This document shows, in pieces, positions 1 through 29,234 of a stretch of 61,507 bases of DNA. This DNA is from a virus. Position 1 is the first letter of the stretch; the number at the start of each line of letters is the position of its first letter. The stretch is from IMG/VR virus record IMGVR_UViG_3300048835_000959, positions 1 to 61,507 of that record. One strand, written 5' to 3'. Below the pieces are notes generated by a model that did no database searches, had not been told where the DNA came from, and saw nothing but the letters and a program-made list of their open reading frames with translations. A program made the position numbers and the translations under genes.

Positions 1-813
1 TCATTGCAAGTTACTCCTTTGCAAGGGACTGGGATGACGAAACGCGACGCGCCTACAAGGACACAACGCGCACTGAGGAATCGACTTGGTTTCGAGGAAT
101 GAGCGAAGCTCGTCGTCGCTCGCTGTTGGCGGGCAAGATTCGTAATCACGGAACAAATCCCACTCCGAAATAGATTCGAGGCGGGCTTTTGTCTCTAGCT
201 GTGGCCAATACGCGAGTGCGGGGCATTTTGCTAGGCAACCATTCACAAGCTGGGTGCAAGCTCGCTGCATACAAACGCGATATGCGGCATCTGGCTCGGA
301 ATTGAAAGGCATCGGCTTGCCATCGACGATGTTGTATTGCCGCATCCAGCCTTTGTGCGACTTGCGAATGTTGATGCGAAGCTTCGGATACTGCTTACGC
401 CAACTCCACACGATCGCTTTAACTTCACGAAACCGATCGAGGTAGTCTTGATGTGTTCCATGCTGGCTGATTTCAAGTTGGCACTCTGTATCAACGAGAA
501 CCCGCGGCAACTCAGGGAAGCGGTGCAGGAAGAATCCATTGGTGACCAGCATCAGTTCACTGTCGTACCAATGTTGTCGAGCGACTTGAATGTGTTCCAA
601 GATCGCAGGATTGAGCAACGGTTCGCCGCCGAGCAAAGCGAATCGCGCTGGCTCAAGTCGATGCGACCATAGCGAGTACTCGGACTCAGCGTCGGCGAGC
701 GTTGGCAGCTTGCCTGCCAAGTGAAAGTTGCTGTAGTGGCTGCACTGCCGGCAGGACAAGTTGCAACCATGAGCAACGTGATACTCAAGTGCGGGCAAGC
801 TGAAGCGTTGCAT
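1..813 (-). CDS. Radical SAM protein
   Basis: Predicted radical SAM enzyme of unknown substrate. Residues 17-24 hold the CxxxCxxC motif (CNLSCRQC) that binds the [4Fe-4S] cluster, and GGEP follows at 62-65, as in the family. Clustered cysteines in the C-terminal third (near residues 180-200, and CALCPC near the end) suggest a SPASM-like auxiliary cluster. I chose the ATG at 813, not 852, because AAGGAGG lies 6 bases upstream. It is the last gene of a minus-strand run of glycosyltransferases, so it may modify a glycan or a peptide handled by them. The family call is firm; the substrate is not known. Confidence 0.85.
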   Translation of the reverse strand: MQRFSLPALEYHVAHGCNLSCRQCSHYSNFHLAGKLPTLADAESEYSLWSHRLEPARFALLGGEPLLNPAILEHIQVARQHWYDSELMLVTNGFFLHRFPELPRVLVDTECQLEISQHGTHQDYLDRFREVKAIVWSWRKQYPKLRINIRKSHKGWMRQYNIVDGKPMPFNSEPDAAYRVCMQRACTQLVNGCLAKCPALAYWPQLETKARLESISEWDLFRDYESCPPTASDDELRSFLETKSIPQCALCPCRRVAFRHPSPLQRSNLQ

Positions 814-1804
814 CGTCGCCCTCCTTGATCCGAAGTTTGAATCGACGAGCATTTACGCCCAGACGGATGAGAAACCGAGTTAGAACTAAATGCGATGAAA
901 ACGTTTCATCCAAGCTCGTCAGTCTCTCGTCGTAAACCGTCAGCTCATCGGACCACGTTCCTGAAACGAGCAGCTTCGGATAAACAGACAGAAGATTCGC
1001 TGCGAGATCTGGTCGGAAGATTGAGCCAATGTCGTAGCTCGTTGGCGGATCGTCTTTCCACTCGTTTATCAGTTCGAACGATTGACGATTGTCAGGAAAT
1101 GGCAACTCGGGTGGATTGCTTCGCTGCCAGTGACAGCGATCAAGATGCGGCTTGCTAGGGCCAATGAAGTGGTAGACAAAGGATTGCATCACTGGATTGG
1201 TTGCCCACTCAGGCGTCTGCAACATACTGACGTTGAAGTCAGGCGGCAGAAACGTGATGGTCTCGGCGTGATCGTTCCACAGTTGGTTGATGATCAGCGA
1301 CTCGTCGGTGGCTTGATCGTTGGCTCCAAAAGTAACGATTAAGTACTGAATGATTCGCTCGAACATGCGTGCAAACGTTTCGGTGTCGTACAAATACAGT
1401 CCACCGTTTGGATGCATCCAAGTCGGCGCGGGATTGAGGCGACATCGTTTGGCCCAAATTTCGTGCGCTGTCTTTTGCCACCCACCGTTGTCGATTCGGT
1501 TTTGAGCGCACTGCCTTTCGCCAACCATTGCGAACTGGCCAGGTTCGGCCAACGCGAACGGCGACGGACAGTCGCTGCGAATAACCATGTCGTTGTCGAT
1601 TTGCAGGACATGCGACGGACCGAACCGCTTTGCAACATCACCACAAACGAACATCTTTTGCCAAAATGGATGGCATGGTTGCAGAGGACGGCGAATCCAA
1701 TGCAGCTCGACGTTCCATCTCTCGGCAGCAGCTTCGACACTCTCTCGCACCGTCGGTACCGCACGGCGCGGTGGTAAATCCAGAATTGCGATGACTCGTT
1801 TCAT
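785..1804 (-). CDS. GT-A type glycosyltransferase-like protein
   Basis: Likely nucleotide-sugar-dependent glycosyltransferase. A Rossmann-like start (VIAILDLPPR) is followed by a DND motif at residues 70-72 (LQIDNDMVI), which looks like the metal and sugar-nucleotide binding DxD of GT-A enzymes. The ATG at 1804 overlaps the stop of the preceding gene as ATGA; a TTG six bases earlier is less likely. Its 3' end overlaps the radical SAM gene by 29 bases, so these genes are translated together. The acceptor and sugar cannot be told from sequence. Confidence 0.7.
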   Translation of the reverse strand: MKRVIAILDLPPRRAVPTVRESVEAAAERWNVELHWIRRPLQPCHPFWQKMFVCGDVAKRFGPSHVLQIDNDMVIRSDCPSPFALAEPGQFAMVGERQCAQNRIDNGGWQKTAHEIWAKRCRLNPAPTWMHPNGGLYLYDTETFARMFERIIQYLIVTFGANDQATDESLIINQLWNDHAETITFLPPDFNVSMLQTPEWATNPVMQSFVYHFIGPSKPHLDRCHWQRSNPPELPFPDNRQSFELINEWKDDPPTSYDIGSIFRPDLAANLLSVYPKLLVSGTWSDELTVYDERLTSLDETFSSHLVLTRFLIRLGVNARRFKLRIKEGDDATLQLART

Positions 1805-2529
1805 TTCCAAAGTACCTTCCTTAATCCGTGTTTACGAAGTGCAGCTCTTAAGAACACTGGTCGATGCCGCTTGTAGGCCGGCGGATCGACATGGATGTGC
1901 GGGAACACATGGTCCATCGCCACTCCAACCCTGACGCCGGCAATCTTGGCTCGCCAGAAGAAGTCCCAGTGCTCATCGACCTTGAGGTCTTCATCCCAGC
2001 GAATCGCCTGCAAGATGTCTCGATGGGCAACAAAGCAGTTACAAACGAATGCGCACTCGGCAATGTCACCGATGCGTCGATACTCGCCACGAGGAATGTG
2101 CAGAACGCCGCCTGAGGAATTGAGTAGCCGGGGCGTTCCATCTGGATGAGGGCGATGGGGCTGCTTACTGAGTGTTGCCAATAGATCAAGGCGACTCAAT
2201 TCGAACTTGCGCACGAGATCATTCAGTCGTGTCTGCGGACCAACGACGTGATCGTCATCGGAGAAGATCACCATCCGAGTTTGCGCGGCTTCAACCAGAC
2301 GATTGCGACCAGCCGACAGTCCGATGTCATACTCGGTCTCAATGAGTCGGTCGACCATCGCGGCTTCATCAGGACAGGTCTGCGAGAATCGCAATTCAGG
2401 CTTCCCATCGTCGAGGACGTAGATCAACGGACGATCGTCCCCACAATACTCATAGATGCTGCGCACAAGCGTTGCGCAGCAATGAGGGCGATGGATAGTC
2501 TTGATGCAGAATGTGACTCGATCACGCAT
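1801..2529 (-). CDS. Family 2-like glycosyltransferase, copy 2
   Basis: GT2-type glycosyltransferase of about 242 residues. It begins with the strand VTFCIKTIHRP, then has VLDDGKPE and later FSDDDHVVGP, matching the two acidic sites that bind the sugar nucleotide and metal in GT2 enzymes. The start at 2529 is set by AGGAGG 7 bases upstream and overlaps the previous stop by 8 bases. It is a diverged paralogue of the gene just upstream, since both start with the same TFCIKTIHRP sequence. It lies in a glycan-modification block next to the tail genes. Confidence 0.82.
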   Translation of the reverse strand: MRDRVTFCIKTIHRPHCCATLVRSIYEYCGDDRPLIYVLDDGKPELRFSQTCPDEAAMVDRLIETEYDIGLSAGRNRLVEAAQTRMVIFSDDDHVVGPQTRLNDLVRKFELSRLDLLATLSKQPHRPHPDGTPRLLNSSGGVLHIPRGEYRRIGDIAECAFVCNCFVAHRDILQAIRWDEDLKVDEHWDFFWRAKIAGVRVGVAMDHVFPHIHVDPPAYKRHRPVFLRAALRKHGLRKVLWK

Positions 2530-3265
2530 GGACAATGCCTCCTCCTGGGTAGCGAAGTGAATCAAAGCCATGCTTGCGAAGCCCCAATCGGCGGAACTTG
2601 GGTCGAGCTCGCAGCGCTCCATATGGCTTAGCTGCAACGTGGTCGTGGACTACCGAGCAATCGAGCGCCACGGCGATTTGCAGATGTTCGATATGAGAGG
2701 CTCTATAGAAGAACTCCCAGTGCTCGTACGTTTTGATCTCGTCATCCCAGCGAACTCGGGCGATCGTGTCACGCCGCGCGAGGAATGCGTTGCTTACCAT
2801 GTCGCACCAACAGGTTTCGCCGATGCGTTTGCGTTCGCCTCGATGCATCCAGATGCGAGTTCCATTCATAAGTGGGCTGAATAGCATTGGCCGGCCGCCA
2901 GCATCTTGCCGTACAGCCAGAATGTCGAGGTCGTACTCAATGAACCTCTGGTAGACTCGGTCAAGATGCAGATCTGGCGTTACGATCTGATCATCATCCA
3001 GCAAAAAAATAAACTCGGTTTCTGCGGCGTCTATTGCTGTATTGCGTCCAACGCCGACACCCACATCGTGCTGCTGGAGATCAATCACTTTGCAGTGTTT
3101 GGCGGTCTCGGGATACTTGCGCGAGAACCAGTATTCAGGCAAGCCATCGTCAACGACCACGATCTTGGGCTCGACAAACTCCTTTCGAAGCGACTGGACG
3201 AGTCGATGGCAGGCCCAAGGCCGATGAATGGTTTTGATGCAGAAGGTAATGTCGTCGAACTTCAT
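2522..3265 (-). CDS. Family 2-like glycosyltransferase, copy 1
   Basis: GT2-type glycosyltransferase of 247 residues. It shows ITFCIKTIHRP at residues 6-16, VVVDDGLPEY for nucleotide binding and FLLDDDQIVTP as the DxD site, then an acceptor-side region with paired HEW-type motifs. It is paralogous with the following gene (same N-terminal decamer and order of motifs), which points to a tandem duplication. It begins two bases after the stop of the GT25-sulfotransferase gene. It probably adds a sugar to the same glycan as its neighbours. Confidence 0.82.
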   Translation of the reverse strand: MKFDDITFCIKTIHRPWACHRLVQSLRKEFVEPKIVVVDDGLPEYWFSRKYPETAKHCKVIDLQQHDVGVGVGRNTAIDAAETEFIFLLDDDQIVTPDLHLDRVYQRFIEYDLDILAVRQDAGGRPMLFSPLMNGTRIWMHRGERKRIGETCWCDMVSNAFLARRDTIARVRWDDEIKTYEHWEFFYRASHIEHLQIAVALDCSVVHDHVAAKPYGALRARPKFRRLGLRKHGFDSLRYPGGGIVHA

Positions 3266-3267
3266 GG

Positions 3268-4602
3268 TTAGCCAAACTTTCTTAATTGTGGGTTAACATG
3301 AGCGATTGCCGAATCGATCTCTTCGGAAGTGGGCTCAATGCCGAGGAATGCGATCAGTTCATTGATCACCGTTTCAGGATCTTCCGTTAGCTTGGCGAAG
3401 TTGATCCGATGGACGGGGACTTCGGGATGTTCTTGAATGAACGTCTCGCGATGTTCCAGAAGCGAACGCTGTAGCTTGTCGCAGGCTTCATCGCCGGCTG
3501 CGAACCATTGACCTGGATGTCGGCTACTTCGATCTTGAAGGGATCTAATCGAGGCTTCGATTGGGCGATCGACTGCGATGATTCGTAGCGAGTTATCGAG
3601 GTCTTCGTAGAGGTGGTTTGCGAATCGGCAGAGATGCGGATACTTGCCGCCTGCCACGGTTCGATCGCGAATGGCTTCTGCCTTCCGCGTTACGATCCAG
3701 GCCTTCAGTTGCTTGGCGAGCTGGCCGTCGGGAATCTTGGGATCGATCGCTGGGAATCGCATCGCCTTTTCACAAAGATTCGCTAGCCCGATCGCCTCGC
3801 CTCCGCCGGTAGCTTCGTAGCCACCGAGTTCGTTGCCCATATGAACGCCTAGATGATGCATGACCATCGCGACGCAACTGGTGCCACTGCGATGGGGCCC
3901 GAGGACGGCGAAGAACGGAGCGTCGCTGTGGTCGGCATTCTTGGCATCGTTAAAAAATCGCGTCTGCGTCCATTTGCGACCGCAGATGTTGGACTTGGTT
4001 GGAAGCTGACCAACTAGCCAGCGATCGGGTGTGTAAACAGGAATCGATTCTTTCTCAACGTTCTTACCTTGAACCAGCGCTTCGTAGCGCCGCTGAATCA
4101 ATCGACCCAGGTGATGATCGATGTGGTGCTTTAGGTGCCAGTCATTCCAGTTCAAGTGACGGTACAAAGCCTTCATCGTTGCGCGCCCGCGAACCATAAA
4201 GGCATGGGTGCGATTGACGTTGTAAGGTCGGTAAACGTGGTCGCTGATCTTCTTGGGCGGATGCTTGGCAGCGTACAGGTGCTGACCTCCGAGGTAAGCG
4301 AGGCCCCAGTCTTCAGGCAACTCACGAATGTATGCCTCAAGATGTTCCACGAAGTCCGGAACGAACCCCGCGTCATCTTCGAAGACCACATACGAGTCGA
4401 TCCCTTCGAGCAAACATTTCTCCAAGATCAGCAAGTGCGAACGGTAGCAGCCCCAGGCACCATTGCCGGCGCGCCACTGCTCGGGCGTCGAGAGCTTGCG
4501 ACCATCGATGGCTGCGAATCGCTCGACGTCTGGGAATGGCCATGGCTGCGGTAGTTGCTGCATCCATTCATGCAATCGATCATCACGGCGATCGAGATTC
4601 AT
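3268..4602 (-). CDS. GT25 glycosyltransferase fused to sulfotransferase
   Basis: Two-domain protein. The N-terminal half matches GT25 (LPS/collagen-type) glycosyltransferases: MNLDRRDDRL at the start, then YRSHLLILEK and VVFEDDAGF with the acidic nucleotide-binding site. The C-terminal half begins with GPHRSGTS at residues 235-242, the 5'-phosphosulfate (PAPS) loop of sulfotransferases, and ends with a typical helical tail. The frame is open to 4833, but that stretch overlaps the preceding gene. The ATG at 4602 is the conservative choice, although it trims the first strand of the GT domain, so an upstream or non-ATG start remains possible. It could add and sulfate a sugar on one acceptor. Confidence 0.8.
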   Translation of the reverse strand: MNLDRRDDRLHEWMQQLPQPWPFPDVERFAAIDGRKLSTPEQWRAGNGAWGCYRSHLLILEKCLLEGIDSYVVFEDDAGFVPDFVEHLEAYIRELPEDWGLAYLGGQHLYAAKHPPKKISDHVYRPYNVNRTHAFMVRGRATMKALYRHLNWNDWHLKHHIDHHLGRLIQRRYEALVQGKNVEKESIPVYTPDRWLVGQLPTKSNICGRKWTQTRFFNDAKNADHSDAPFFAVLGPHRSGTSCVAMVMHHLGVHMGNELGGYEATGGGEAIGLANLCEKAMRFPAIDPKIPDGQLAKQLKAWIVTRKAEAIRDRTVAGGKYPHLCRFANHLYEDLDNSLRIIAVDRPIEASIRSLQDRSSRHPGQWFAAGDEACDKLQRSLLEHRETFIQEHPEVPVHRINFAKLTEDPETVINELIAFLGIEPTSEEIDSAIAHVNPQLRKFG

Positions 4603-4615
4603 CAGGAAGCAACGT

Positions 4616-5188
4616 TCAACGATCTTCTTCGTCGGTATCTGGATCGTCTTCGTTGGGCTCGGGTGCACCGTCTGGGAACTTACGTTCAAACCTGCGGATG
4701 GCAGTGAGCACGAGTGACTTGGCGATGGTTCTAGTAAACTTTCCATGGGGTAATCCTCTGAGTTGGGCTTCTTCCAAAAGCCATTCGATAATGGTGTCGA
4801 GATTCGTACGGCATCCCTCCACGCCCCAATCATTCATGGTCTCGGCGCGGGTCTCACACTTGCAGGTGTCGCTTGGTCTTGCGAACCATGCGAGCATCTT
4901 GCGAAGTTCACTTCCTGGCCCCGGCTTGTAAGCTGCGATCCGCAGGGTCGTGGGTTCTTCCTGATTGGGCAGGTAGCTCTTCAGCAGCGTTTTGAGTTCG
5001 TCGACGCTCTGGTTGCGTCGGCGTTTGTTGACGATGGCCATGCCGATCGTCACGAGGTTGACAGCTTGCGGATTCGAACACTCGCTGCAGGCTCGGCATC
5101 CGCTGGACGAAGCCTGGACGGAGCAGTCGGCCAAGTGACTAGCGACCTGACAGCGGTTGTCGTTAGTCAGATTGGGACAATGCATCAT
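4616..5188 (-). CDS. Cysteine-rich conserved hypothetical protein
   Basis: A 190-residue protein with an N-terminal cysteine-rich segment (MMHCPNL, CxxC pairs within the first 40 residues) that could bind zinc. The middle region contains GPGSELRKMLAWF, CKCETRAETMNDWGVEGC and a basic helix; the tail is acidic. I associate this arrangement with a conserved protein found after tail genes in planctomycete prophages, but no function is known to me. It starts in a 4-base ATGA overlap with the serine-rich tail gene, so it is co-translated with it. It may assist the tail tip or regulate. Confidence 0.6.
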   Translation of the reverse strand: MMHCPNLTNDNRCQVASHLADCSVQASSSGCRACSECSNPQAVNLVTIGMAIVNKRRRNQSVDELKTLLKSYLPNQEEPTTLRIAAYKPGPGSELRKMLAWFARPSDTCKCETRAETMNDWGVEGCRTNLDTIIEWLLEEAQLRGLPHGKFTRTIAKSLVLTAIRRFERKFPDGAPEPNEDDPDTDEEDR

Positions 5189-7584
5189 GCTGCCACCTCC
5201 ACAACTTCACCGTCGTACCCACCCGATCCACTCGGTGGATCGCCAACTTCGGGACAATCACTTTCAAGGAGCTGCCAACCGCAGGACCAGATCCATGTTG
5301 TATTGCAGGGCTCGCTCGTGCTGCTGTCGGAAGTTGGAGGTTCGCTTGGCGGTTCGCTATCGGAGTGACTGACGCTCGGACGATCCGACTCGCTGGTCGA
5401 TTGATCATGGGAGTCGCTTATTGATGGATCATTTGAATCGCTTGTCGATGGCGATGAGTCACTGCCTGAGCCGCTCGTTGATCCGCTTCCAGAGCCGCTT
5501 TGCGAATAGCTGCCAGAACCGCTGGTGGAATGGCTGGTCGACCAGGGAACGCTGTAGCTTTCACTTTCGCTGTAGCTGGGGCGGTCGCTGCTGGATCGGC
5601 TTTCTGAACCATCGCTGCTCGATGGCTCGCTCGTTGATCGCGATTCACTACCTGATTCGCTTTCCGACTGGCTTTGCGATTCGCTTTGCGATTCACTCTC
5701 GCTCTGGCTTGAGTCGCTGGCCGACACTGAACCACTGCCGCTTGAATAACTTGGCTGCGAGTAGCTCGGCCATGAGTAACTCGGCACCGAACGGCTATCG
5801 CTACTTGGATCTTGAGAATCCGATTGGCTTTCCGACTGGCTCTCGCTTTCCGAACTGATCGATTCGCTTTCGGAGCTGTCGGATTGGCTGCTGTCGCTTC
5901 CACTCGAATCGCTCTGGCTGGAATCGCTACCACTGGATGATCCCGAGTAGCTTGCGCTGTACGACTGGCTGTAACTGGCGTCGCTCGAATACGATTCGCT
6001 TGTTCGTGATGAATCTGAATCGCTAGATTCAGACTGGCTGGATTTTGATTCACTTGATTCGGACTGACTCGACTCCGATTTACTCGAGCTCGATCCACTG
6101 GAGCCGCTGGACTGGCTCGAATGACTCGAATCAGAGCTTGATCCGCTCGATGAGTGACTGCTTGAGTAAGAGGGCTCACTCAGTGAAATAGATTGGCTCG
6201 AGTCGCTAGAAGATCCGCTGGATGCAGATGATCCAGAACTTGATGATTGGCTTGAGCTTGAATGCGACGAGCTCGAGCCGGATGAACTCGAAAGACTAGA
6301 CGAACTCGATCCAGAACTTGAGACCGACGGTGCCGAGTAGGATTGCGACGAACTTGAATGCTCGCTCGACGATGAGCTCATCGAAGACTGGCTACTCGAT
6401 GAGCTGATGGAACTGGATGAACTCGATGAGACGCTCGAACTGCTCGACGAGGATGGACTCGATGAGCTACTGCCGGAGCTGCTGCTGGAGCTGCTCGACG
6501 ATGACGATGAACTCGAAGAGCTAGACGAGCTGCTGCTGGAACTTGAACTACTGCTTCCCTCGCAGCAGCGGCAGCCGATGGTTAGGTAAGCGCTGGTGTC
6601 CTCGTGGAAATGACAAACAATCTGTTGGCTTGTCAGAAGGGCATAGTCACAGACATTGTAGACCGCGACCTTGACTCCGATTGGTGCCCAGACACCGTTG
6701 GCATATCGCAGTTCACGAGCCATGCCCCAACTCTTAGCCTTGAGCCTCGAGACGGGTTTGCAGAGCAACGTTTGTTTTGGCGGGTCGATGATCCAGGAAT
6801 GATTGCCGTCGTAGGTGACGCTGAGATACTGACCATCGTCGTAATTGGAAACCGGACCTCGAATGCGCTGGGCGCTCGGGTTGCGAGCGATGATGCGAAC
6901 GCCTTGTCCATTCGGTTTCAGGACCGGCTCAATGGTGCCAGCATCGTCGAGCTGAAAGAGGTCGCAGTTGGCGGAACCGGTCGCAAGACCAGAGCGACCA
7001 GGGATACCACCGCTGGGAACCTTCACCAGGAACGCAGGATCGGCCGGCTTACCAACGCGAACGACAGCCCACTGGACGCCCGTTTGATTCGCATCGCGTC
7101 GCCATAGGATCTGGGCGGAGCCGCTGGGCGTTGACTGGAGTGTCGTACCTCCCGAGTCGGCTACATCAGCATATTGATGCCAGGTCTCTTGAACGTTCAC
7201 ACGGGCGGCGACGACGCCTGAGAATACCACGCGACCGACTTTGTCCTCGGCGATCGGCTCGATAGCTACTCCGAATCGTCCCATATGCTCGTCGACGATG
7301 GGACGAACCGACTGGATCGTCGCATCACGTACGAAACGAGCGAGTGCTGTATTGTCGACGTCTGGATCGCCCAGTGGGGCGTTAAAACCGACGATTCCAC
7401 CGATGGGCACAGTGGTCGCACTTTGATAGTGAACGCGAACGGTGGCAGCGTCGCGAACGTGGGTGCGGTTTCCTGCGCCACCTGCGAGTCGGTCACGCGC
7501 AACTGCATCGGCGGCCGCCAGCAGACGGTTGTATTCCGCTGCGGTGATATTGAGTCTTTCGCCTGGCCGAACTCGCCTTGCCAT
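5185..7584 (-). CDS. Serine-rich phage tail tip or fibre protein
   Basis: A 799-residue protein in two parts. Residues 1-340 look globular and lie where a tail-tip or baseplate protein is expected. Residues 345-755 are low-complexity serine, with pure serine runs followed by short SSQS, SGSD, SESQ and SYS units. The last 40 residues are again ordered and contain CNTTWIWSCGWQLL and three cysteines. It starts directly after the previous stop (TAATG). Such serine tracts are commonly O-glycosylated in surface proteins, and glycosyltransferase genes follow downstream, so a glycosylated stalk is a fair inference. The exact tail role is unproven. Confidence 0.65.
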   Translation of the reverse strand: MARRVRPGERLNITAAEYNRLLAAADAVARDRLAGGAGNRTHVRDAATVRVHYQSATTVPIGGIVGFNAPLGDPDVDNTALARFVRDATIQSVRPIVDEHMGRFGVAIEPIAEDKVGRVVFSGVVAARVNVQETWHQYADVADSGGTTLQSTPSGSAQILWRRDANQTGVQWAVVRVGKPADPAFLVKVPSGGIPGRSGLATGSANCDLFQLDDAGTIEPVLKPNGQGVRIIARNPSAQRIRGPVSNYDDGQYLSVTYDGNHSWIIDPPKQTLLCKPVSRLKAKSWGMARELRYANGVWAPIGVKVAVYNVCDYALLTSQQIVCHFHEDTSAYLTIGCRCCEGSSSSSSSSSSSSSSSSSSSSSSSSSSSGSSSSSPSSSSSSSVSSSSSSSISSSSSQSSMSSSSSEHSSSSQSYSAPSVSSSGSSSSSLSSSSGSSSSHSSSSQSSSSGSSASSGSSSDSSQSISLSEPSYSSSHSSSGSSSDSSHSSQSSGSSGSSSSKSESSQSESSESKSSQSESSDSDSSRTSESYSSDASYSQSYSASYSGSSSGSDSSQSDSSGSDSSQSDSSESESISSESESQSESQSDSQDPSSDSRSVPSYSWPSYSQPSYSSGSGSVSASDSSQSESESQSESQSQSESESGSESRSTSEPSSSDGSESRSSSDRPSYSESESYSVPWSTSHSTSGSGSYSQSGSGSGSTSGSGSDSSPSTSDSNDPSISDSHDQSTSESDRPSVSHSDSEPPSEPPTSDSSTSEPCNTTWIWSCGWQLLESDCPEVGDPPSGSGGYDGEVVEVAA
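5320..6553 (-). repeat. Serine-codon low-complexity tract
   Basis: About 1.2 kb of degenerate short repeats made of serine codons (AGC, TCG, AGT, TCA), interspersed with Gln, Glu, Asp, Gly, Tyr and Pro codons, inside the tail gene. The 5' part of the gene tract (6430-6553) is nearly pure serine; the rest alternates Ser with polar residues. The tract is prone to slippage, so its length probably varies between strains. Confidence 0.85.
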
Positions 7585-8375
7585 TACTCGATCCCCAATG
7601 CGTTGAAGTTCGCTTCGGGGTAAACCTGTTCGACGTAGGCCGCTTCAGGAACTTGTAGGACGCGATCACCAACCACCTCTTCGCCATGCTTGACCCAGAG
7701 GTAATCCCAGCCTCGTTTCGCAACGCCAGAAATATTGCCAACCGTGAGGTTGATCTCGTTGGGACGCGCCGCGAAGTGATAGGTCACATCGACCCAGTTC
7801 TGTTCATCTTCGCCGCCTTCGCCTCCAAGGAACAATGCTTCTCCGGGAGCGAAGATCGACCAGGGACTTGAGTTAACACGGCCCGTCATCGCGACCATGG
7901 CGAGCAGGTAGGCAGTGGAGACAAACTCAAACTTTTTGCGGACAGAGAACTCGAACGCGGGAACGGTCACATCGACGCCGGCAACGCCCGAGTCGCTCAC
8001 ACCGATTGCACCTCGATAGTTCGGAGCGATCTTGCCTGGGGCGGCATAAATTCCACGAGTGATGAGCGACTGATTGAGATGCGTCGATGCGCCGGTGGTA
8101 TTGAACGAGACTGGATCGAGCTTGGTCCTGTTGATCGATGCGGTGACAAGAGCATGCTTCTCGTTGATGTACTCGCCATCAACTTGCAGGTACGGAATCA
8201 GATCCCGATGATTGCTGCGGTAGTACGACAGAAGCGCATCGGCCGCAGTTGCCGGATCAACGGCTCCCCCGTTTGTCCCAACGTACACGAACGTGTCGGC
8301 AGTCGACTTACCGCGAGTTGCCTTCTTGGACAGTGCTGCCAAGTCAAAATTGTATCCACCGTGTGAGAATCCCAT
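7584..8375 (-). CDS. Putative phage tail protein
   Basis: A 263-residue protein directly after the tape measure gene (TAATG overlap) and before the serine-rich tail gene. This is the slot for a distal tail or tail-tip subunit. The sequence is rich in beta-prone stretches (GVDVTVPAFEFSVRKKFEF, WVDVTYHFAARPNEINLTVGN) and has no signal peptide or enzyme motif. I do not recognise a named family; the call rests on position and fold type. Confidence 0.55.
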   Translation of the reverse strand: MGFSHGGYNFDLAALSKKATRGKSTADTFVYVGTNGGAVDPATAADALLSYYRSNHRDLIPYLQVDGEYINEKHALVTASINRTKLDPVSFNTTGASTHLNQSLITRGIYAAPGKIAPNYRGAIGVSDSGVAGVDVTVPAFEFSVRKKFEFVSTAYLLAMVAMTGRVNSSPWSIFAPGEALFLGGEGGEDEQNWVDVTYHFAARPNEINLTVGNISGVAKRGWDYLWVKHGEEVVGDRVLQVPEAAYVEQVYPEANFNALGIE

Positions 8376-11300
8376 TAGCTGAACACGAAGCCTCCCGTGC
8401 GGGCGCGTTCGGCTAGCTGAGCGGTGTTCTCAGCGGTTTGAATGATGGCTCGCTTGACATCATCCGACATGCCTTCGCCAGTAACTGGGGGCATCTGCAG
8501 CCGAGCGACGCTTTGCGATAGAGCTGCGTCGAACTCCTCGAGTCGAGCTCGCACCGCAGCAAAGGATGCCAGAAGTGATTCGAGATTAAGCGATGGCTCC
8601 GTTTCCTCAGGAAACAATGCGTCGGCCAGTTCATCGAGCTCTTCCTCTGACATGTCTTGAGACTGCAAAGACGGGGTCTCGTTCATCGGAACAAGAACCT
8701 CGGGCATCTCCCCGTTATCAGGCTGAGCGTCTGCCTGCGGATCAACGTCAAGATCGCCCGCGTCAACATCTTCAGCCACGTCAGGTTTGTCAGCGACCTG
8801 CAAAGTAGGAATCAGCGATGCGCCGCTCCCAAGTCCCAGGCCACGGCTATCGAAGTTGCCGGCCGCTTCGGTCTTCTCGGTCACTGCTTCTGGACCGCTG
8901 GAGAATTGATCCAGCGAATCCTTAGCCGAGCGGTCGAGACCAAGCTTGAGGTCCTTCTTCTTGGGCGGCTTAAGCTTGGGATCTTTGATGCCATCGACTT
9001 CAACCTTCGGCACCTTCAGTTCGCCAGGCACCGGAGGCGCGGGCATGTGAGGGATCGGAGTGCCAGCGTCTGGTTCTTTGGCAGCTTCCGGCTCTTGCGG
9101 TTTTGCGGCATTGGCTGCTTCGACGGCGGCATCGAACTCAGCTTGGGCGGCGGCAACCTGATCGTCTCGTTCCTTGGTACGATCCTCGGGCGACTGACGA
9201 CCAGCTTCACGAGCGACGCGTGCCTCCTCACGCATTTGATCGAGGGTCTTTTGAACGCCTGCGGTGGTATCGTCGATCGTCTGTTGTCGCGACTGTCCGG
9301 CCGCTTCGTTCTGTTTGAACTGATCATCGCGCGAAGCATCGACCACCTGGTTCTTGGCGTCGGTCTCTTGATCGATGACCGCCATCTCAGCATCAATGTC
9401 GCGACCAGCCCGGGCCTTGCGTCGTTCCTCAAGTTGCTGCTTGATGCCTTCCTGCATCTGTACGCGATTAGCTTCGATCTGCTGTTTACGAGCGTCGCGC
9501 CGTTTCATGCGATCGCCGATGGCTTGCTGCTTCTTGGCTTCTTCGGCTTCGTCGGCTGTGCGGATCTCCTTGTCAATCTTGGCCATTTCGACTTCGACAT
9601 TCACATCGTCATCAAACAGTGACTTCAGTTTGATCCAGGCCTTGCGCAGAAAGCCGACGGTCGAATTCCACATCGATTTGACTTGGGCGACGAACACCGA
9701 CCAAGTGTCGGCGAGATAGTCAATCGTTTCGACCCAGGCGGTCTCTACGCCTGCAAGCGCATTGATGAGCACGCCACCGATCTGAACAGAAACGTCGCCA
9801 GCAATATCCACGAGCTCTCGCAGCCGAATGAATCCCTTTTTGAGAAACCCTATCGTGGAATTCCAGCCTTTTTGCACCGAGGTCGTGAGGATAGTCCAAC
9901 CATCGGCCATGAAACCGAGCGTCGCATTCCATACGCTTGCAAGTCCTGATAGGGCACTAATCAGCACATCGCCAATCGCGTAGGCGGTGTCGCCCCAAAC
10001 ATCGGACAGGTAACTGGTGAAATCGGCCCACACTCCTTTGAGATAGGTTGTGCCCTTGATCCACTGGAGCTTGAGATAGGTCCACAGAACATTGGCTGCT
10101 GCGGTGATATCTCCGGCAGCCAGTGCATTGGCGATCGCACCAAAGGCCTTGATCGTGTCGGCCTTCAGCGTCTCGAAGACGCCTTTCAAATACTCGATCG
10201 CCTGGCCGGCAATTCCAGTGGAGTAGATGAAGTATGCACCCAGTGCCGCGATGGCAGCGACAACCAGACCGAGAGGCGTGAACAGAGCGCCGATCATGGT
10301 CACAAGGAAGCCGATAGCGGTTCCCACCAGTGAGAACATCGAAGCCAGACCACCGACTGCGAATGCAGCGACACCAGCGGCGCTACCGATGCCGATGAAC
10401 GCTGCGCCTACACCAACCACGCCAGCAACGATGAGGGCGACCTTCTTGACCACTTCCTGGTTCTTGCCGATCCATTCGGTGAGTCCAGACAATGCCCGTG
10501 AGATCGCATTCATCATCTTGGTCACAGAGAGATCGAGTGATTCGCCAATCGCAATCGCTACGCCCTCGATGGAGCTTTTGAGAATCCGGAAGGCACCGCC
10601 GATTCCAGAATCCATATCAGCAGCTGTCTTGGCGGAGATTCCACGGGCTTTTTGAATCTCGCCGAGCAATTGCCGGGTATCGGTAACCGACTTGCCGATC
10701 GCAGATGCGCTCGTGATGCCCAACAATCCAAACACTTCGTTGAATGCTGCGGCGCGATCACCAGAGCCCATGTTGGCTGTGGCTGCAGCAACTTCACCAA
10801 GCACATCGACCAGCTTGCGAGCGTTACCTTGCGCATCTTTCGTAGCAACGCCGAAGACCTTTTGAAACTTCTCGGATTCCGACGCGCTAAGCGTGAGCAA
10901 GCGACGCAGTGCGGTTCCCGCCTCGCTGCCTTGAATCCCAAGGTTTCCAAGGGTACCGAGAATGGCGAGCGTCTCTTCGAGACTCATGTTGGCATCGGCT
11001 GCCACAGGACCTGCATACGATAATGCCTCGCCGAGTGATTCCACGGAGTTGAACGACTTGTTGGCCGCGGCCGTCAATCCGTCAGCGACGCGGACCGCAT
11101 CGGTGGCTGCCATCGAAAACTGGCGAATGGTGGCGGCCATGATCCCGGAGCTGAGGGTTGCATCGGTACCAGTAGCTCTTGCGAGATTCATCACCGCGCC
11201 GGTCATCTCTTCGATTTGCTTGGGTGAGAAACCGGCTCGTCCGAGCTCGGTCATCAGCGAGGCAACTTCACTCGCCGAGAAACTCGTGGTTGCCCCAAGA

Positions 11301-11578
11301 AGCTTGGCTTTCTCACGCAAGGAATCGAAAGCCGCTCCAGTCGCGCCGGCCACTGCACCTGCGGCGCGAATCGCATCATCGAAGTTAGCATAGACGGCGA
11401 CACTTCCAGCCACGGGAGCAGCAGCGGCCACCCCTAGTCCCATCAGCTTGGTGCCGATCATTCGCGTTGATGCGCCGAATGATTTCAGCCGCTTCTGCGC
11501 AGCCTCGAGCCCCTTGAGGAACTGGGCGCTCCTCGCGGTCAGCTCGACGTAGGCTCCTCCGGCTTTGACTTGAGACAT
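8375..11578 (-). CDS. Phage tail tape measure protein
   Basis: A 1067-residue tape measure protein, which sets tail length and carries the DNA ejection machinery. The N-terminal 340 residues match the TP901 core type: GAVAGATGAAFDSLREKAK, TSFSASEVASLMTELGRAG and GTALRRLLTL. Long hydrophobic stretches follow at about residues 385-450, then repeated tryptophan-containing amphipathic units (WNSTVGFLRK-like, three copies). Next comes a charged, coiled-coil, alanine-rich region, and the end is Pro/Asp/Glu-rich. Its length implies a tail of roughly 150 nm if the usual 1.5 angstrom per residue holds. It follows the tail chaperone genes, as in siphoviruses. Confidence 0.93.
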   Translation of the reverse strand: MSQVKAGGAYVELTARSAQFLKGLEAAQKRLKSFGASTRMIGTKLMGLGVAAAAPVAGSVAVYANFDDAIRAAGAVAGATGAAFDSLREKAKLLGATTSFSASEVASLMTELGRAGFSPKQIEEMTGAVMNLARATGTDATLSSGIMAATIRQFSMAATDAVRVADGLTAAANKSFNSVESLGEALSYAGPVAADANMSLEETLAILGTLGNLGIQGSEAGTALRRLLTLSASESEKFQKVFGVATKDAQGNARKLVDVLGEVAAATANMGSGDRAAAFNEVFGLLGITSASAIGKSVTDTRQLLGEIQKARGISAKTAADMDSGIGGAFRILKSSIEGVAIAIGESLDLSVTKMMNAISRALSGLTEWIGKNQEVVKKVALIVAGVVGVGAAFIGIGSAAGVAAFAVGGLASMFSLVGTAIGFLVTMIGALFTPLGLVVAAIAALGAYFIYSTGIAGQAIEYLKGVFETLKADTIKAFGAIANALAAGDITAAANVLWTYLKLQWIKGTTYLKGVWADFTSYLSDVWGDTAYAIGDVLISALSGLASVWNATLGFMADGWTILTTSVQKGWNSTIGFLKKGFIRLRELVDIAGDVSVQIGGVLINALAGVETAWVETIDYLADTWSVFVAQVKSMWNSTVGFLRKAWIKLKSLFDDDVNVEVEMAKIDKEIRTADEAEEAKKQQAIGDRMKRRDARKQQIEANRVQMQEGIKQQLEERRKARAGRDIDAEMAVIDQETDAKNQVVDASRDDQFKQNEAAGQSRQQTIDDTTAGVQKTLDQMREEARVAREAGRQSPEDRTKERDDQVAAAQAEFDAAVEAANAAKPQEPEAAKEPDAGTPIPHMPAPPVPGELKVPKVEVDGIKDPKLKPPKKKDLKLGLDRSAKDSLDQFSSGPEAVTEKTEAAGNFDSRGLGLGSGASLIPTLQVADKPDVAEDVDAGDLDVDPQADAQPDNGEMPEVLVPMNETPSLQSQDMSEEELDELADALFPEETEPSLNLESLLASFAAVRARLEEFDAALSQSVARLQMPPVTGEGMSDDVKRAIIQTAENTAQLAERARTGGFVFS

Positions 11579-23281: not shown

Positions 23282-23556
23282 CACATTCCTCCGTGACTTG
23301 GCATCTCGAAACGTGGGGCCACCGTTTGCGCACGGTCGCGTTTTGACCGCATGTTCGCCTGGTTATGCGGAGCATGTTTGGACGCGACGGTGGCGTAATG
23401 TTGGGGCACCGGTGGCCTCTCAAAAAAACATGGAAATTACTGGGAAAAACATGCAAGACGTCGCTTGAGGTTCCTCGAAACGCATGGCTCATGTGTGTCA
23501 TCGCGACGCAGAAAGCGCGACGCAAAACACACCTCGAACCACACAGGAACGCAACG
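23282..23556 (+). other. Divergent regulatory region, packaging versus accessory genes
   Basis: A gap of 275 bases between the leftward packaging operon and the rightward small-gene block. It holds a GCGCACGGTCGCGTT motif near 23327 that recurs in later intergenic regions, poly-A/poly-T patches near 23420-23455 and the first copy of the repeated promoter-like element. No protein-coding signal was found in it. Confidence 0.6.
23464..23504 (+). promoter_or_regulatory. Repeated promoter-like element, copy 1
   Basis: CTTGA, 15 bases, then ATGGCTCATGTGTGTCAT. The spacer holds the weak inverted repeat GTT-CCTCGA-AAC. It lies 73 bases before the amidoligase start. The pattern fits a promoter read by a dedicated factor, although no TATAAT-like -10 is visible. 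Confidence 0.65.
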
Positions 23557-24414
23557 ATGAACGCAAACGAAATCGCCTTCGGAATCGAATTCGAAACCAC
23601 CCTCCCCGGCACCGACAACACACCGATCGGACCCTACCACAACGGATACCAAGTACCCTGGCTGCCAACCGGATGGAAAGCAGAACGAGACGGAAGCATC
23701 CGACCCGAGAACGCCAGCCGCAAAGGTTGCGAGTTTGTAAGCCCAATACTCAAAGGGGTTGAAGGCGTACAGCAGATCGAGAACGCGATCGACCAGATCA
23801 ACGCTCGCGGGGGCCGAGTAAATTCGAGCTGCGGGCTGCACATAACGGTTAGCTGGTACGGAGACGCAGCCGCCTTGGCAAGATTGATTTCCTTGGTCGG
23901 CAACCACGAACGAGCGATCTACGCCTCGACCGGAACCCGCAAACGCGAACAGATGATGTACGCCAAGCGGATCAAACAATACGGCAACAAAGACAACGCC
24001 AAGAGCCGATGTGAATCGGATCGCTACCACCTGCTGAACCTCACCCACCTGACCCGCGGCAAGAACCGAATCGAATTTCGGGCCTTCGGCGGAACGCTCA
24101 ACAAGACCAAGGTGGTCGGATACCTGATGATGGTTTTGGGTTTGGTTGAACTCGCCCTCAATACCAAACGCTGCAGCGAATGGGACTACATCAAGAAGGA
24201 AGGCACCAAGAGTTGTTGGGACCGCCCCGGGGCCGGCCTGGGCGAAACCGAAATCAACCGATTGTTCTACCGACTCGGATGGACCAAGGGTTGGTACAAG
24301 GGTGCTCTTCGCGACAAGGTCTACGGAGAGATCGCCAGCGAAACCAAACCGGAATGGAAAAAGATCAAGACCAAACTCCTTGAGCTCGCCCGCAAATACG
24401 ACCGCGCGGCCTAA
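23557..24414 (+). CDS. Amidoligase-family enzyme
   Basis: A 285-residue protein from the ATG at 23557; the frame is open from 23365, but that part spans the promoter element. It fits the amidoligase family (glutamine-synthetase fold, forms amide bonds using ATP): AFGIEFETT at the start with paired acidic residues, DGSIRP and GCEFVSPIL, then SCGLHITVSW and RIEFRAFGGT with conserved His and Arg. Family members in phages usually pair with an ATP-grasp or cyclotransferase gene; none is here. The target could be a host peptide or envelope component. It opens the accessory block and is followed by two hairpins. Confidence 0.8.
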   Translation: MNANEIAFGIEFETTLPGTDNTPIGPYHNGYQVPWLPTGWKAERDGSIRPENASRKGCEFVSPILKGVEGVQQIENAIDQINARGGRVNSSCGLHITVSWYGDAAALARLISLVGNHERAIYASTGTRKREQMMYAKRIKQYGNKDNAKSRCESDRYHLLNLTHLTRGKNRIEFRAFGGTLNKTKVVGYLMMVLGLVELALNTKRCSEWDYIKKEGTKSCWDRPGAGLGETEINRLFYRLGWTKGWYKGALRDKVYGEIASETKPEWKKIKTKLLELARKYDRAA

Positions 24415-24428
24415 ACCACAACCACATA

Positions 24429-24460
24429 GAACGCCGCGAACGGAATCGCGGCGTTCTTTC
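24429..24460 (+). terminator. Rho-independent terminator after amidoligase
   Basis: Perfect 10-base stem GAACGCCGCG / CGCGGCGTTC with an 8-base loop, followed by TTTCGTTT. The same stem-loop recurs at 25550-25573. Confidence 0.8.
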
Positions 24461-24467
24461 GTTTGGT

Positions 24468-24495
24468 CGCGACAGTTGCGCACTGTCGCGTTCTT
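24468..24495 (+). terminator. Second hairpin after amidoligase
   Basis: Perfect 9-base stem CGCGACAGT / ACTGTCGCG with loop TGCGC, followed by TTCTT. Partly conserved versions occur near 23327 and 25588, so it is part of a repeated intergenic module. Confidence 0.65.
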
Positions 24496-24612
24496 ACGAG
24501 CATCTTCGACCAAGTAACCGACATCCAGAACGACGCGACACGGGCGAACGTTGCGAACCGTGGGGCGTTCCCAGGAACATGCAAAAACATTCAGAAAAGC
24601 TGCTGGAATCGG

Positions 24613-24653
24613 CTTGAGGTTATTCGAACCGCATGGCTCATGTGTGTCATCAC
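24613..24653 (+). promoter_or_regulatory. Repeated promoter-like element, copy 2
   Basis: CTTGA, 15 bases, ATGGCTCATGTGTGTCATCA. The spacer contains GGTT-ATTCG-AACC as an inverted repeat. The next start codon is 61 bases after the ATGGCTC block. Confidence 0.7.
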
Positions 24654-24693
24654 GTAAACGATTCCATTCCCTTTCCGAAACGGAGAAGCACAG

Positions 24694-24987
24694 ATGAACG
24701 ACACAACCACCACCAGCGCCGAACAAGCGATCAAGGACGAACTGCGACGCCTCGGATGGATGATCCCCGACGCACAACGCCGCCTCAACGAGCATGCCCA
24801 AACGATCCTTCGGAGGGCCGAACGAGCGGTCAAGGACATGGAAGCCATGATGGCCAACCAACCCTGCAGTATGAGCTGGGTGGATTTCGCTGAAAGCGAT
24901 CTGCGAAACGCGCGCGAGGCGAAGGCCCAACTCGAGTTCCTCTACCAACAACGAACCATGCTCGAATTCTTTTTGAAGAAGGACTAG
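24694..24987 (+). CDS. Small coiled-coil protein, unknown function
   Basis: A 97-residue, mainly helical protein. Heptad-like stretches (DELRRLGWMIPDAQRRLNEH and LRNAREAKAQLEFLYQQRTM) suggest a coiled-coil dimer. CGGAGA lies upstream of the ATG. It has its own promoter-like element and is followed by 279 bases without a gene. There is no membrane segment and no enzyme motif. It could be a regulator or an inhibitor of a host function. Confidence 0.6.
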   Translation: MNDTTTTSAEQAIKDELRRLGWMIPDAQRRLNEHAQTILRRAERAVKDMEAMMANQPCSMSWVDFAESDLRNAREAKAQLEFLYQQRTMLEFFLKKD

Positions 24988-25185
24988 CGAACGACGCGAA
25001 TTCGCCGGCGGCCACGAGCTGCCGGCGAAGTTCTCGCGAGATTCTTTGGGACCTCGTTCCACCTCTTTTGCATAGATAGTTAATAGAGGGCCAACATACT
25101 CGTCCTCCCAATACGCGAACTTCCGCGGCAGCCAACACGCGGAAAAGAAAGCTGCAGAATCTTTCCCGAATTCTCGCATGCTCGG

Positions 25186-25226
25186 CTTGAGGTTATCGAA
25201 ACCGCATGGCTCATGTGTGTCATCGC
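25186..25226 (+). promoter_or_regulatory. Repeated promoter-like element, copy 3
   Basis: CTTGA, 15 bases, ATGGCTCATGTGTGTCATCG. The spacer contains GGTT-ATCGA-AACC. The distance of 61 bases to the next start codon is identical to that of copy 2. Confidence 0.7.
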
Positions 25227-25266
25227 GTAAACGATTCAAACCTTTTTCCGAAACGGAGACACAAAC

Positions 25267-25524
25267 ATGACCAACGCAAACAACCCACACGCAGCTACGG
25301 ACGCAACCCTTCGCCAGATCTTCAAAACGATGGACGCCCACCAAGCCCAAGAGATCCGCGAAGCCTACTACAAGGCAATCGAGGGTTTGATGACCTTGGC
25401 AGAAACCCTCGAGATCGCCGACGCGCAACAAACACCCAGCGCCGGCCCGCTTCTCACCGAACACTTCAACGCGGTCCAAGCCCTGGACGCAATGAAGAAC
25501 AGCCGCCTCGGAAAGATCCTCTAA
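25267..25524 (+). CDS. Small helical protein, unknown function
   Basis: An 85-residue, all-helical protein (ATLRQIFKTMDAHQAQEIRE, LMTLAETLEIADA). No known family is recognised. It is an isolated unit: promoter-like element before it and a strong hairpin terminator after it. The expression pattern is probably shared with the other small genes of the block. Confidence 0.6.
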   Translation: MTNANNPHAATDATLRQIFKTMDAHQAQEIREAYYKAIEGLMTLAETLEIADAQQTPSAGPLLTEHFNAVQALDAMKNSRLGKIL

Positions 25525-25549
25525 ACCACAGACCAGCGGAATGCCACGG

Positions 25550-25578
25550 ACGCCGCGAACGGAATCGCGGCGTTCTTC
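25550..25578 (+). terminator. Rho-independent terminator, second copy
   Basis: ACGCCGCG / CGCGGCGT stem with the same AACGGAAT loop as at 24439, followed by TCTTCC. The next 100 bases also match the region after the amidoligase gene, so the whole intergenic unit is duplicated. Confidence 0.75.
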
Positions 25579-25731
25579 CGCTTGGTCGCGACACTCGCCC
25601 ACTGTCGCGTTCTTCTTAGCACCTTCGACCAAGTACCCAACATTCGAAACATCGCAACACGGGCCAACGTCGGTGCCCGTAAGGCATCCCGAGAAACATG
25701 GAAGAACATGGGAAAAAGCTGCTGAAAGCGG

Positions 25732-25772
25732 CTTGCTGCCGGTTGAACCGCATGGCTCATGTGTGTCATCGC
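25732..25772 (+). promoter_or_regulatory. Repeated promoter-like element, copy 4
   Basis: CTTGC, 15 bases, ATGGCTCATGTGTGTCATCG. The spacer holds the inverted repeat CGGTT-G-AACCG. The gene start is 64 bases after the conserved block. Confidence 0.7.
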
Positions 25773-25815
25773 CCAGCGACCAACCGCCTTCACCACGCAA
25801 GAGGAGAACAAACCG

Positions 25816-26091
25816 ATGGCCCGAACTAACGCCAGGCACACTGCTATCAGAACCGCCTTCAAACAAATGCCGCGCGCAACTGCGCTGGACCTCTGTGAGG
25901 ACTACCGCGAAGTGGTCACAAGGTTGAAACGACTGGCTGACAACTTGGCCGGCGCGTTCGCGGTAGCGAGCGGAGGTTCGGCCCGCGCCCTGGAAGCAGA
26001 ACTCCGCATGTTTGAAGAAGCTATCGACGTCCTTTCCGGCAGCATGTTGCCCGAAGCGATCGACGAATGTTTGCCTTCCAAAGAATGCTGA
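25816..26091 (+). CDS. Small helical protein, unknown function
   Basis: A 91-residue protein from the ATG at 25816 (GAGGAG upstream). The frame is open from 25759, but the extra part is the promoter element. It is mostly helical (LDLCEDYREVVTRLKRLADN, ALEAELRMFEEAIDVL) with two Cys near the end. No family is recognised; it belongs to the separately promoted accessory genes. Confidence 0.6.
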   Translation: MARTNARHTAIRTAFKQMPRATALDLCEDYREVVTRLKRLADNLAGAFAVASGGSARALEAELRMFEEAIDVLSGSMLPEAIDECLPSKEC

Positions 26092-26121
26092 AAAAACCTG
26101 CTGAAAACATTGAAAGGACGG

Positions 26122-26162
26122 CTTGAGGTTATCCGAACCGCATGGCTCATGTGTGTTATCGC
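26122..26162 (+). promoter_or_regulatory. Repeated promoter-like element, copy 5
   Basis: CTTGA, 15 bases, ATGGCTCATGTGTGTTATCG; note the C to T change in the block. The spacer contains GGTT-ATCCG-AACC. Confidence 0.7.
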
Positions 26163-26199
26163 ATAACCAATTTTCATTCACCCAAACGGAGAACCAAAC

Positions 26200-26475
26200 A
26201 TGAATCTCGACACCCTGATCGAAATCCTCAACGACTACCGCGAAGAGTTCGGAGGCGACGCCGAAGTGCGGCTGATGACCCAGCAGAACTGGCCTTTCGA
26301 GAACCGCATCTGCGGCGTGACCAGCGGACGCGACATGAACGAAGCGGACGATGAGGATGCGGACGCCGACGACGATGACCAAGACGTCGCCGACGACCAC
26401 ACGGTCTACATCGTCGAAGGTGGCCAGATCTGCTACGGCAGCAAGCGAGCTTGGGAAACATGTCGCGATAGCTGA
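26200..26475 (+). CDS. Acidic conserved hypothetical protein
   Basis: A 91-residue protein with DTLIEILNDYREEFGGDAEV at the start, then VRLMTQQNWPFENRI, a strongly acidic centre (about residues 48-67, nearly all Asp/Glu) and VYIVEGGQICYGSKRAW at the end. I know this order of motifs from small conserved proteins of phages and plasmids, but with no assigned function. The acidic centre might act as a DNA mimic or bind metal. Confidence 0.65.
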   Translation: MNLDTLIEILNDYREEFGGDAEVRLMTQQNWPFENRICGVTSGRDMNEADDEDADADDDDQDVADDHTVYIVEGGQICYGSKRAWETCRDS

Positions 26476-26539
26476 CCGCAACACGCCGATGCGCCGGGAG
26501 AAAGGTTCTGGAAAACCTTCAGAATCTTTCCCCCTTCGG

Positions 26540-26580
26540 CTTGATGCGGTTTGAACCGCATGGCTCATGTGTGTCATCGC
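26540..26580 (+). promoter_or_regulatory. Repeated promoter-like element, copy 6
   Basis: CTTGA, 15 bases, ATGGCTCATGTGTGTCATCG. The spacer has the perfect inverted repeat GCGGTT-TG-AACCGC. This copy is the only one out of phase with the common reading frame. Confidence 0.72.
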
Positions 26581-26619
26581 ATACGACATATCAAACACGA
26601 ACAAACGGAGATCAACACG

Positions 26620-26868
26620 ATGCCAACCATGACCAACCGACCACGCCTGACCTCGGCCCAATTCCTCGGAGCGCACCGACGAGCGCTCGAGACGATCAGC
26701 GACCTGTACGCAGCGATCGAAGAGATGCCGATCCTTGCCGCTGCAGACCCAACGACCATGAAACGGTTCTTCGACGAGTTGGCTGATGTGCAAGCCACAG
26801 CCGCCAAGCTCGCCCAGCATTTCCGCACGCAGGTATGCACCGAAGAAAAGATTTCGAATTCCTTTTGA
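26620..26868 (+). CDS. Small helical protein, unknown function
   Basis: An 82-residue protein from the ATG at 26620; a longer frame from 26551 would run through the promoter element. Two or three helices (SAQFLGAHRRALETISDLYA, MKRFFDELADVQATAAKLAQ) suggest a small bundle. It shows no known motif and is one of the serially promoted accessory genes. Confidence 0.58.
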   Translation: MPTMTNRPRLTSAQFLGAHRRALETISDLYAAIEEMPILAAADPTTMKRFFDELADVQATAAKLAQHFRTQVCTEEKISNSF

Positions 26869-26874
26869 ATCCGG

Positions 26875-26915
26875 CTTGATGCGGTTCAAACCGCATGGCT
26901 CATGTGTGTTAACGC
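26875..26915 (+). promoter_or_regulatory. Repeated promoter-like element, copy 7
   Basis: CTTGA, 15 bases, ATGGCTCATGTGTGTTAACG. The spacer holds the perfect inverted repeat GCGGTT-CA-AACCGC. It begins just after the stop codon of the preceding gene. Confidence 0.72.
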
Positions 26916-26952
26916 GAAAACGATTCACCAACCAAACAACGGAGACCAGTAG

Positions 26953-27267
26953 ATGACCCAACACGACCTCGACCTGACGATCACCAAGATCAGCAATCGC
27001 AACCGCGGTGCTGGCGGGTCTTGGGTGCAAGGCAAGATCAACGACGAATACCGATTCGATGCTTTGGTCTTCGCCGAACACGCAGAACACGAATCGTACG
27101 AATTGAACCAAAGCAAGATTTCGAAGCTTTGGGTTCAACGCCTGGCCGACCGCAAAGTGATGTTCAACTTCGATCGCGGGTTGGATGTGCCAGCGGTCAA
27201 TACAGAGGTGCAGGTGATAGTCGACTTTCTCTGCGAGGGATTGTCGGACTTGGTCTTTGGTCAATAA
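26953..27267 (+). CDS. Conserved hypothetical phage protein
   Basis: A 104-residue alpha/beta protein with WVQGKINDEYRFDALVFAEH, SKISKLWVQRLADRKVMFNF and a C-terminal helix (AVNTEVQVIVDFLCEGLSDL). I have a sense of a conserved family with the FDALVF...HAE and KLWVQRL motifs in phages and plasmids, with no known function. It has its own promoter-like element and may share its transcript with the HARE-HTH gene downstream. Confidence 0.65.
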   Translation: MTQHDLDLTITKISNRNRGAGGSWVQGKINDEYRFDALVFAEHAEHESYELNQSKISKLWVQRLADRKVMFNFDRGLDVPAVNTEVQVIVDFLCEGLSDLVFGQ

Positions 27268-27360
27268 GCCGAAACGCAGCACGGACGCGCGTAGTCGATC
27301 GGTGGTTCGATCGGCCTGACGATGGCAGCCAACCACGAACATAGATTTGGAGATACCAAG

Positions 27361-27930: not shown

Positions 27931-27942
27931 GGGAACGAACCG

Positions 27943-28176
27943 GTGAAACACTTTTACGATTTGCGAACGGTGGATGACCTGGCCGAAGGCGAGATCGCAA
28001 CGCCAGAGCCAGGCATCACCTACGACCTTCGAACGATTAACAATCGCAAGCTCGACGTAGGCAGCGTGGTGGATGTGATCCGCCAGGGCCCGACGCTGTT
28101 CGCCCGAACCACCAGCGGAGACTCGATCGCAGTCTCCGGCCACGGCGCTGCCATCCTGGTGCCGCACGACTTGTAG
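27943..28176 (+). CDS. Small beta-rich protein, unknown function
   Basis: A 77-residue protein with a GTG start (GGGGAACG upstream), 12 bases after the HARE-HTH gene, so probably in one operon with it. The sequence (YDLRTVDDLAEG, YDLRTINNRKLDVGSVVDVI, LFARTTSGDSIAVSGHGAAI) repeats the YDLRT motif and looks like a small beta barrel. No family is known to me. Confidence 0.55.
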   Translation: MKHFYDLRTVDDLAEGEIATPEPGITYDLRTINNRKLDVGSVVDVIRQGPTLFARTTSGDSIAVSGHGAAILVPHDL

Positions 28177-28644: not shown

Positions 28645-28656
28645 AACAAGGAACCC

Positions 28657-28887: not shown

Positions 28888-28899
28888 GGAAGCCAACCT

Positions 28900-29217: not shown

Positions 29218-29234
29218 CGTAATGAATTGTCCCA

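Follow-up and report, generated by a model that had tools for sequence, protein, structure and literature searches.

Two described systems come close to the locus considered here. In mycobacteriophages, capsid and tail-tube subunits are glycosylated at their C-termini by phage-encoded enzymes, as reported by Freeman 2023 (cited in PMC11256854 and PMC12619734). In the serine-rich repeat protein (SRRP) loci of Gram-positive bacteria (GspB, Fap1, PsrP; PMC6973325), a long serine (Ser)-rich acceptor is encoded beside its glycosyltransferases (GTs) and modified in the cytoplasm, the first enzymes being conserved and the later ones variable in number. The IMG/VR virus record IMGVR_UViG_3300048835_000959, analysed over its whole length of 61,507 bases (the window), encodes a Ser-rich tail protein, SERR, followed by a run of enzyme genes and a small gene, ORF190, named as an open reading frame (ORF). 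On the evidence of its sequence, this cassette is quite probably a phage-encoded protein glycosylation system, which would O-glycosylate and sulfate the phage's own Ser-rich tail protein; the suggestion that phages sugar-coat such a protein arises because the pairing is found again in many viruses unrelated to one another.

As in the mycobacteriophages, the GTs would act on the phage's own structural proteins, and their genes lie near structural genes in the phage genome, as is characteristic of phage-encoded virion glycosylation. The view that phage-encoded tail glycosylation would be unprecedented thus gives way to the mycobacteriophage reports. The difference lies in the target, which would be a Ser-rich protein of the tail-tip region rather than capsid and tail-tube subunits at their C-terminal ends, in the core of GT25 and ORF190, and in the hosts. 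With the SRRP loci the cassette shares the long Ser-rich acceptor gene beside the enzymes, the constant first and variable later enzymes, and the predicted cytoplasmic modification, and ORF190 may correspond to GtfB, the helper that binds the acceptor (PMC6973325). It departs from them in its first enzyme (GT25), its place in a phage tail operon, and its sulfotransferase and radical SAM genes. Instead of the GtfA/GtfB priming pair, the enzymes are GT25, GT2, GT2 and GT8-like, and neither a hydrophobic N-terminus or membrane segment nor SecA2/SecY2 genes were found among the scanned proteins. Failing both the defining enzyme and export tests, the cassette works like the SRRP loci but is not a member of them. 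The nearest solved structures to the GT25 domain are procollagen galactosyltransferase 1 (COLGALT1), followed by mimivirus R655, both with a GT25 catalytic domain. COLGALT1 acts on collagen hydroxylysine; the GT25 of the window, by contrast, carries a fused sulfotransferase domain, and its genes occur alongside those for Ser-rich proteins. No earlier description of poly-Ser or Ser-rich phage glycosylation, or of such a cassette, was found in the open PMC literature searched, and the cassette is a distinct, widespread variant of what its genes predict to be phage-encoded virion glycosylation.

The original prediction started from a long Ser tract in SERR, and the tract is indeed present (Table 1), with a Ser content of 60%, all six Ser codons in use (AGC 82, TCG 55, TCA 38, AGT 36, TCC 22, TCT 17), and acidic S-[EDQ] repeats in its second half. 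A tandem-repeat artefact was ruled out, Tandem Repeats Finder returning there only short arrays of 2-3.4 copies and the codons having turned over. Codon comparison of the tract in five close pairs of relatives revealed 52-62 changed Ser codons per pair, some of them TCN/AGY switches, with Ser remaining in 56/56, 62/62, 57/58, 53/54, and 48/52 cases, respectively. Serine itself is therefore under purifying selection, since the altered codons all or nearly all still encode it; the non-Ser residues of the tract were retained at 84-87%, and the dN/dS of the tract (0.07-0.13) is near that of the N-terminal domain (N-domain; 0.04-0.09).

Linkage to the enzymes, which lie with SERR in one leftward run (first noticed for the four GT-type proteins), is tight among near relatives. 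Of the loci extending at least 2.5 kb past the Ser-rich gene, 44/44 contain ORF190 and 43/44 contain GT25, the sole locus without GT25 (L072) being a short rearranged match; where at least 6.5 kb follows, ORF190 and GT25 are each found in 30/30, radical SAM in 28/30, GT8-like in 17/30, and GT2 in 29/30, the GT2a and GT2b counts being upper bounds because the two cross-match. At a greater distance, a GT25 profile scan yielded 56 loci (0.90 Mb, 16 GT25 clusters), in which there are 38 poly-Ser ORFs (a Ser content of 50% or more across 60 residues); 36 of them are no more than 3 kb from GT25, nearly all immediately upstream of it in the same orientation, and 10 of the 16 clusters include one. The control set of 80 terminase-anchored phage loci (1.19 Mb, mostly of related phages) contained no poly-Ser ORF, even at 35% Ser, so that a tract of this Ser content exceeds chance; as the loci so compared are not independent of one another, the Fisher value of the comparison is not read as a probability. 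The tract-bearing proteins differ in their N-termini, the SERR N-domain profile matching only some of them; in most of the distant poly-Ser loci the Ser-rich gene and GT25 have an ORF190 relative between them, and in five of ten phages tested a tape-measure gene could be recognised ahead of the distant gene run. In the named-phage collection, GT25 matches were only partial, in marine and uncultured phages.

The association persists when its parts are exchanged. In two loci, L028 and L071, SERR has only a short tract (40 Ser), and a long poly-Ser tract resides in the ORF190 gene instead; L071 retains GT25 and one GT2. An ORF190-anchored search, positive in 15 of 298 genomes from the class, and a separate search anchored on the tail gene upstream of SERR revealed loci in which the Ser-rich protein is followed by PF11051 and an FkbM methyltransferase, by GT4, radical SAM, and GT2, by GT7C, or by GT9, the Ser-rich protein being retained in most distant tails despite the change of enzyme family. 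Rather tentatively, and at somewhat less than even chance, these may be instances of a general phage module for virion mucins, comprising a Ser-rich tail protein, ORF190 as a new acceptor-binding adaptor with a GtfB-like role, and exchangeable glycosyl-, sulfo-, and methyltransferases, which would diversify tail-surface glycans across many phage groups as bacteria diversify their O-antigens.

Three of the four GT-type proteins originally proposed are supported by Pfam (GT25, GT2, GT2), and so is the sulfotransferase carried by one of them; the fourth has a weak GT8 match only, together with a DxD motif (D72/D74) invariant among its relatives, and no match in the PDB. Two parts of the cassette, ORF190 and the radical SAM gene, had been overlooked. 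The GT25 domain scores 40.9 bits against a curated cut-off of 24, placing it within the family, and the acidic catalytic motif EDD and the motif GPHR[SA]GTS are invariant in the alignment of the fusion protein, whose true start is probably 4746 rather than 4833 because the ORFs of several relatives begin there. Being the constant enzyme in near relatives, with a protein galactosyltransferase as its nearest solved structure, GT25 is the likeliest of the enzymes to make the first transfer. The radical SAM protein has viperin-like models as its nearest but reaches only 36.7 bits against a cut-off of 180, and it is not called viperin. ORF190 is small, helical, and Cys-containing, with the signature GxG[ST]ELKKML..CxC..MNDWG..C..WLxEEA; it has no family in Pfam, and its AlphaFold2 model (predicted local distance difference test, pLDDT, 84) matched no fold in the PDB. 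Its distant copies adjoin GT25, and from its gene place and the analogy with GtfB of the SRRP loci (PMC6973325) it probably assists in acceptor or enzyme binding. In one relative, ORF190 and GT25 are separated by an inserted gene (locus L036, 12168-14555) for a 795-residue protein whose repeated segments look concanavalin-like.

No membrane segment was found in the cassette proteins (maximum 19-residue hydropathy 1.22), so that modification would be cytoplasmic and precede virion assembly. SERR would be a tail-tip or baseplate-region protein with its Ser tract as a multi-site acceptor, on which GT25 would place the first sugar, probably aided by ORF190; the GT2 and GT8-like enzymes would lengthen the chains and the sulfotransferase would sulfate them, while a sugar may be modified by the radical SAM enzyme. 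The result would be a stalk of mucin-like character and negative charge, on which the Cys-containing C-terminal module is held outward; it might help the phage to resist proteases, extend its reach, or make contact with hosts covered in polysaccharide. The proposal that phage enzymes glycosylate the tail protein, as first put forward, is backed by sequence comparison, namely the genes and their order, linkage set against the control loci, transfer of the tract, enzyme swaps, selection on Ser, and the membrane-free enzymes; the acceptor, the reaction order, the role of ORF190, the sugar, and the purpose are what we infer.

Several observations weigh against such a system. Linkage alone cannot separate an acceptor from a neighbour, and in bacteria GT25 enzymes are chiefly familiar from lipopolysaccharide (LPS) synthesis. 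The N-domain of SERR has no confident fold match, none being obtained at E<=0.001. Two host loci, L316 and L317 (Roseiconus, R. solitaria), carry a second ORF190-GT25-sulfotransferase-GT8-like set without poly-Ser, approximately 12 kb from the cassette and on the opposite strand; other GT25 loci have no Ser-rich gene (L126, L128, L141-L151), and the pairing is strong rather than absolute, as some related tails carry GT2 without a Ser-rich protein (L356, L370, L376). Those tails lend some weight to the alternative that poly-Ser is a flexible, unmodified linker and that the enzymes act on another virion protein. Unmodified poly-Ser linkers do occur in bacterial enzymes. This account is nonetheless unlikely, given that tract residues other than Ser change whereas Ser is retained, that the enzymes follow the tract even after its move to another gene, and that Ser-richness is absent from the few further large proteins of the window that were checked.

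Marginally less likely still is that the enzymes alter the host surface polysaccharide during lysogeny (serotype conversion), with the Ser-rich protein as an unrelated neighbour. Temperate phages do carry such enzymes, a large serine recombinase is encoded in the window, and many GT25 proteins act in LPS synthesis (PF01755 description); the cassette enzymes, however, are soluble, without the flippase or membrane GT of Gtr-type systems, and their genes, oriented like the late tail genes among which they lie, accompany poly-Ser genes from phage to phage. In ten host genomes, moreover, 17 of the 22 places with GT25 are at cassettes and two are beside a second ORF190, leaving three elsewhere without poly-Ser; ORF190 itself was found 20 times, mostly at cassettes. 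Glycosylation of phage DNA (hypermodified bases) is very improbable, for although GT2a reaches 26 bits with the TET-associated glycosyltransferase family, this falls just below the cut-off of 27.5, generic GT2 describes the protein far better, no base-oxidising oxygenase of the TET/JBP type was found among the window proteins scanned, and the cassette sits with tail genes and carries a sulfotransferase.

If the proposed glycosylation of SERR is correct, O-glycosylation of tail proteins would be a recurring phage trait rather than a mycobacteriophage curiosity, recognisable by a compact gene signature (Ser-rich protein, ORF190, GT25), and would affect phage adsorption and resistance to proteases or recognition. 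It would also supply enzymes for the glycosylation and sulfation of poly-Ser, and point to a possible role for the ORF190 domain family, to which no function is assigned. The cassette is open to testing because the cultured planctomycete Rhodopirellula rubra CECT 8075 carries four copies.

Table 1. Features of the cassette and the adjoining tail genes, in window coordinates.
Feature	Position	Strand	Evidence
SERR, Ser-rich tail protein, 799 residues	5185..7584	(-)	ORF call, composition, relatives
SERR N-terminal domain, residues 1-343, conserved, beta-rich	6556..7584	(-)	alignment of relatives
SERR Ser tract, residues 344-759	5308..6555	(-)	composition: 250/416 Ser
SERR C-terminal module CNTTWIWSCGWQLLESDC...YDGEV, 40 residues, Cys-containing	5185..5307	(-)	conserved in most relatives
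ORF190, new family of helical domains, gene flanked by SERR and GT25	4616..5188	(-)	alignments
GT25-sulfotransferase fusion	3268..4833	(-)	PF01755 2.7e-10; PF00685 1.6e-5
GT2 glycosyltransferase a (GT2a), FLLDDDQ	2522..3265	(-)	PF00535 4e-11
GT2 glycosyltransferase b (GT2b), FSDDDH	1801..2637	(-)	PF00535 4.5e-6
Putative GT-A enzyme, GT8-like	785..1810	(-)	PF01501 E=0.071 (weak); invariant DxD
Radical SAM protein, final cassette gene in record	1..852	(-)	PF04055 2.1e-8
Tape measure protein	8375..11578	(-)	PF10145 3.7e-44; phrog_28 3.7e-75
263-residue tail protein between tape measure and SERR	7584..8375	(-)	syntenic in relatives

The window encodes a terminase, portal, capsid, major tail, and tape measure protein, and the leftward order runs from the tape measure through the 263-residue gene, SERR, ORF190, the GT25-sulfotransferase, the two GT2 genes, and the GT8-like gene to radical SAM. 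The 263-residue protein had no family match in Pfam or PHROG-type scans and is Dit-like by position. Position after the tape measure likewise supports the original designation of SERR as a tail protein, which has no family match behind it. The AlphaFold2 model of its N-domain has a mean pLDDT of 69.8, and its fold search gave weak matches to phage capsid decoration proteins and the phi29 head-fibre base, which are suggestive only; no match was found by sequence in the PDB and no relative in the named-phage collection. A Cys cluster, CRCCE, closes the N-domain directly ahead of the Ser tract and is possibly a clamp or recognition signal. Such clusters (CRCC, CxCG, CCCG) also immediately precede the tract in many otherwise unrelated Ser-rich proteins (L097-L148).

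Relatives of the N-domain number 39 in viruses and 32 in the genome collection, the latter all (32/32) from Planctomycetota records, with named hosts including Pirellula, Rhodopirellula, Rubripirellula, Stieleria, Roseiconus, Aporhodopirellula, and similar genera; the host group of the virus is the planctomycete bacteria. Elsewhere in the window, a defence-like island near the serine recombinase (45666-56668) encodes DNA methylase-like, P-loop, and helicase proteins with an MmeI-type restriction-modification protein. Numerous small plus-strand ORFs occupy 23437-29235, where a recurring DDTHEPCG motif in a minus frame reflects a short DNA sequence repeated between the small genes, and a DNA N4/N6 methylase fused to a ParB-like domain is encoded at 29807-31186.
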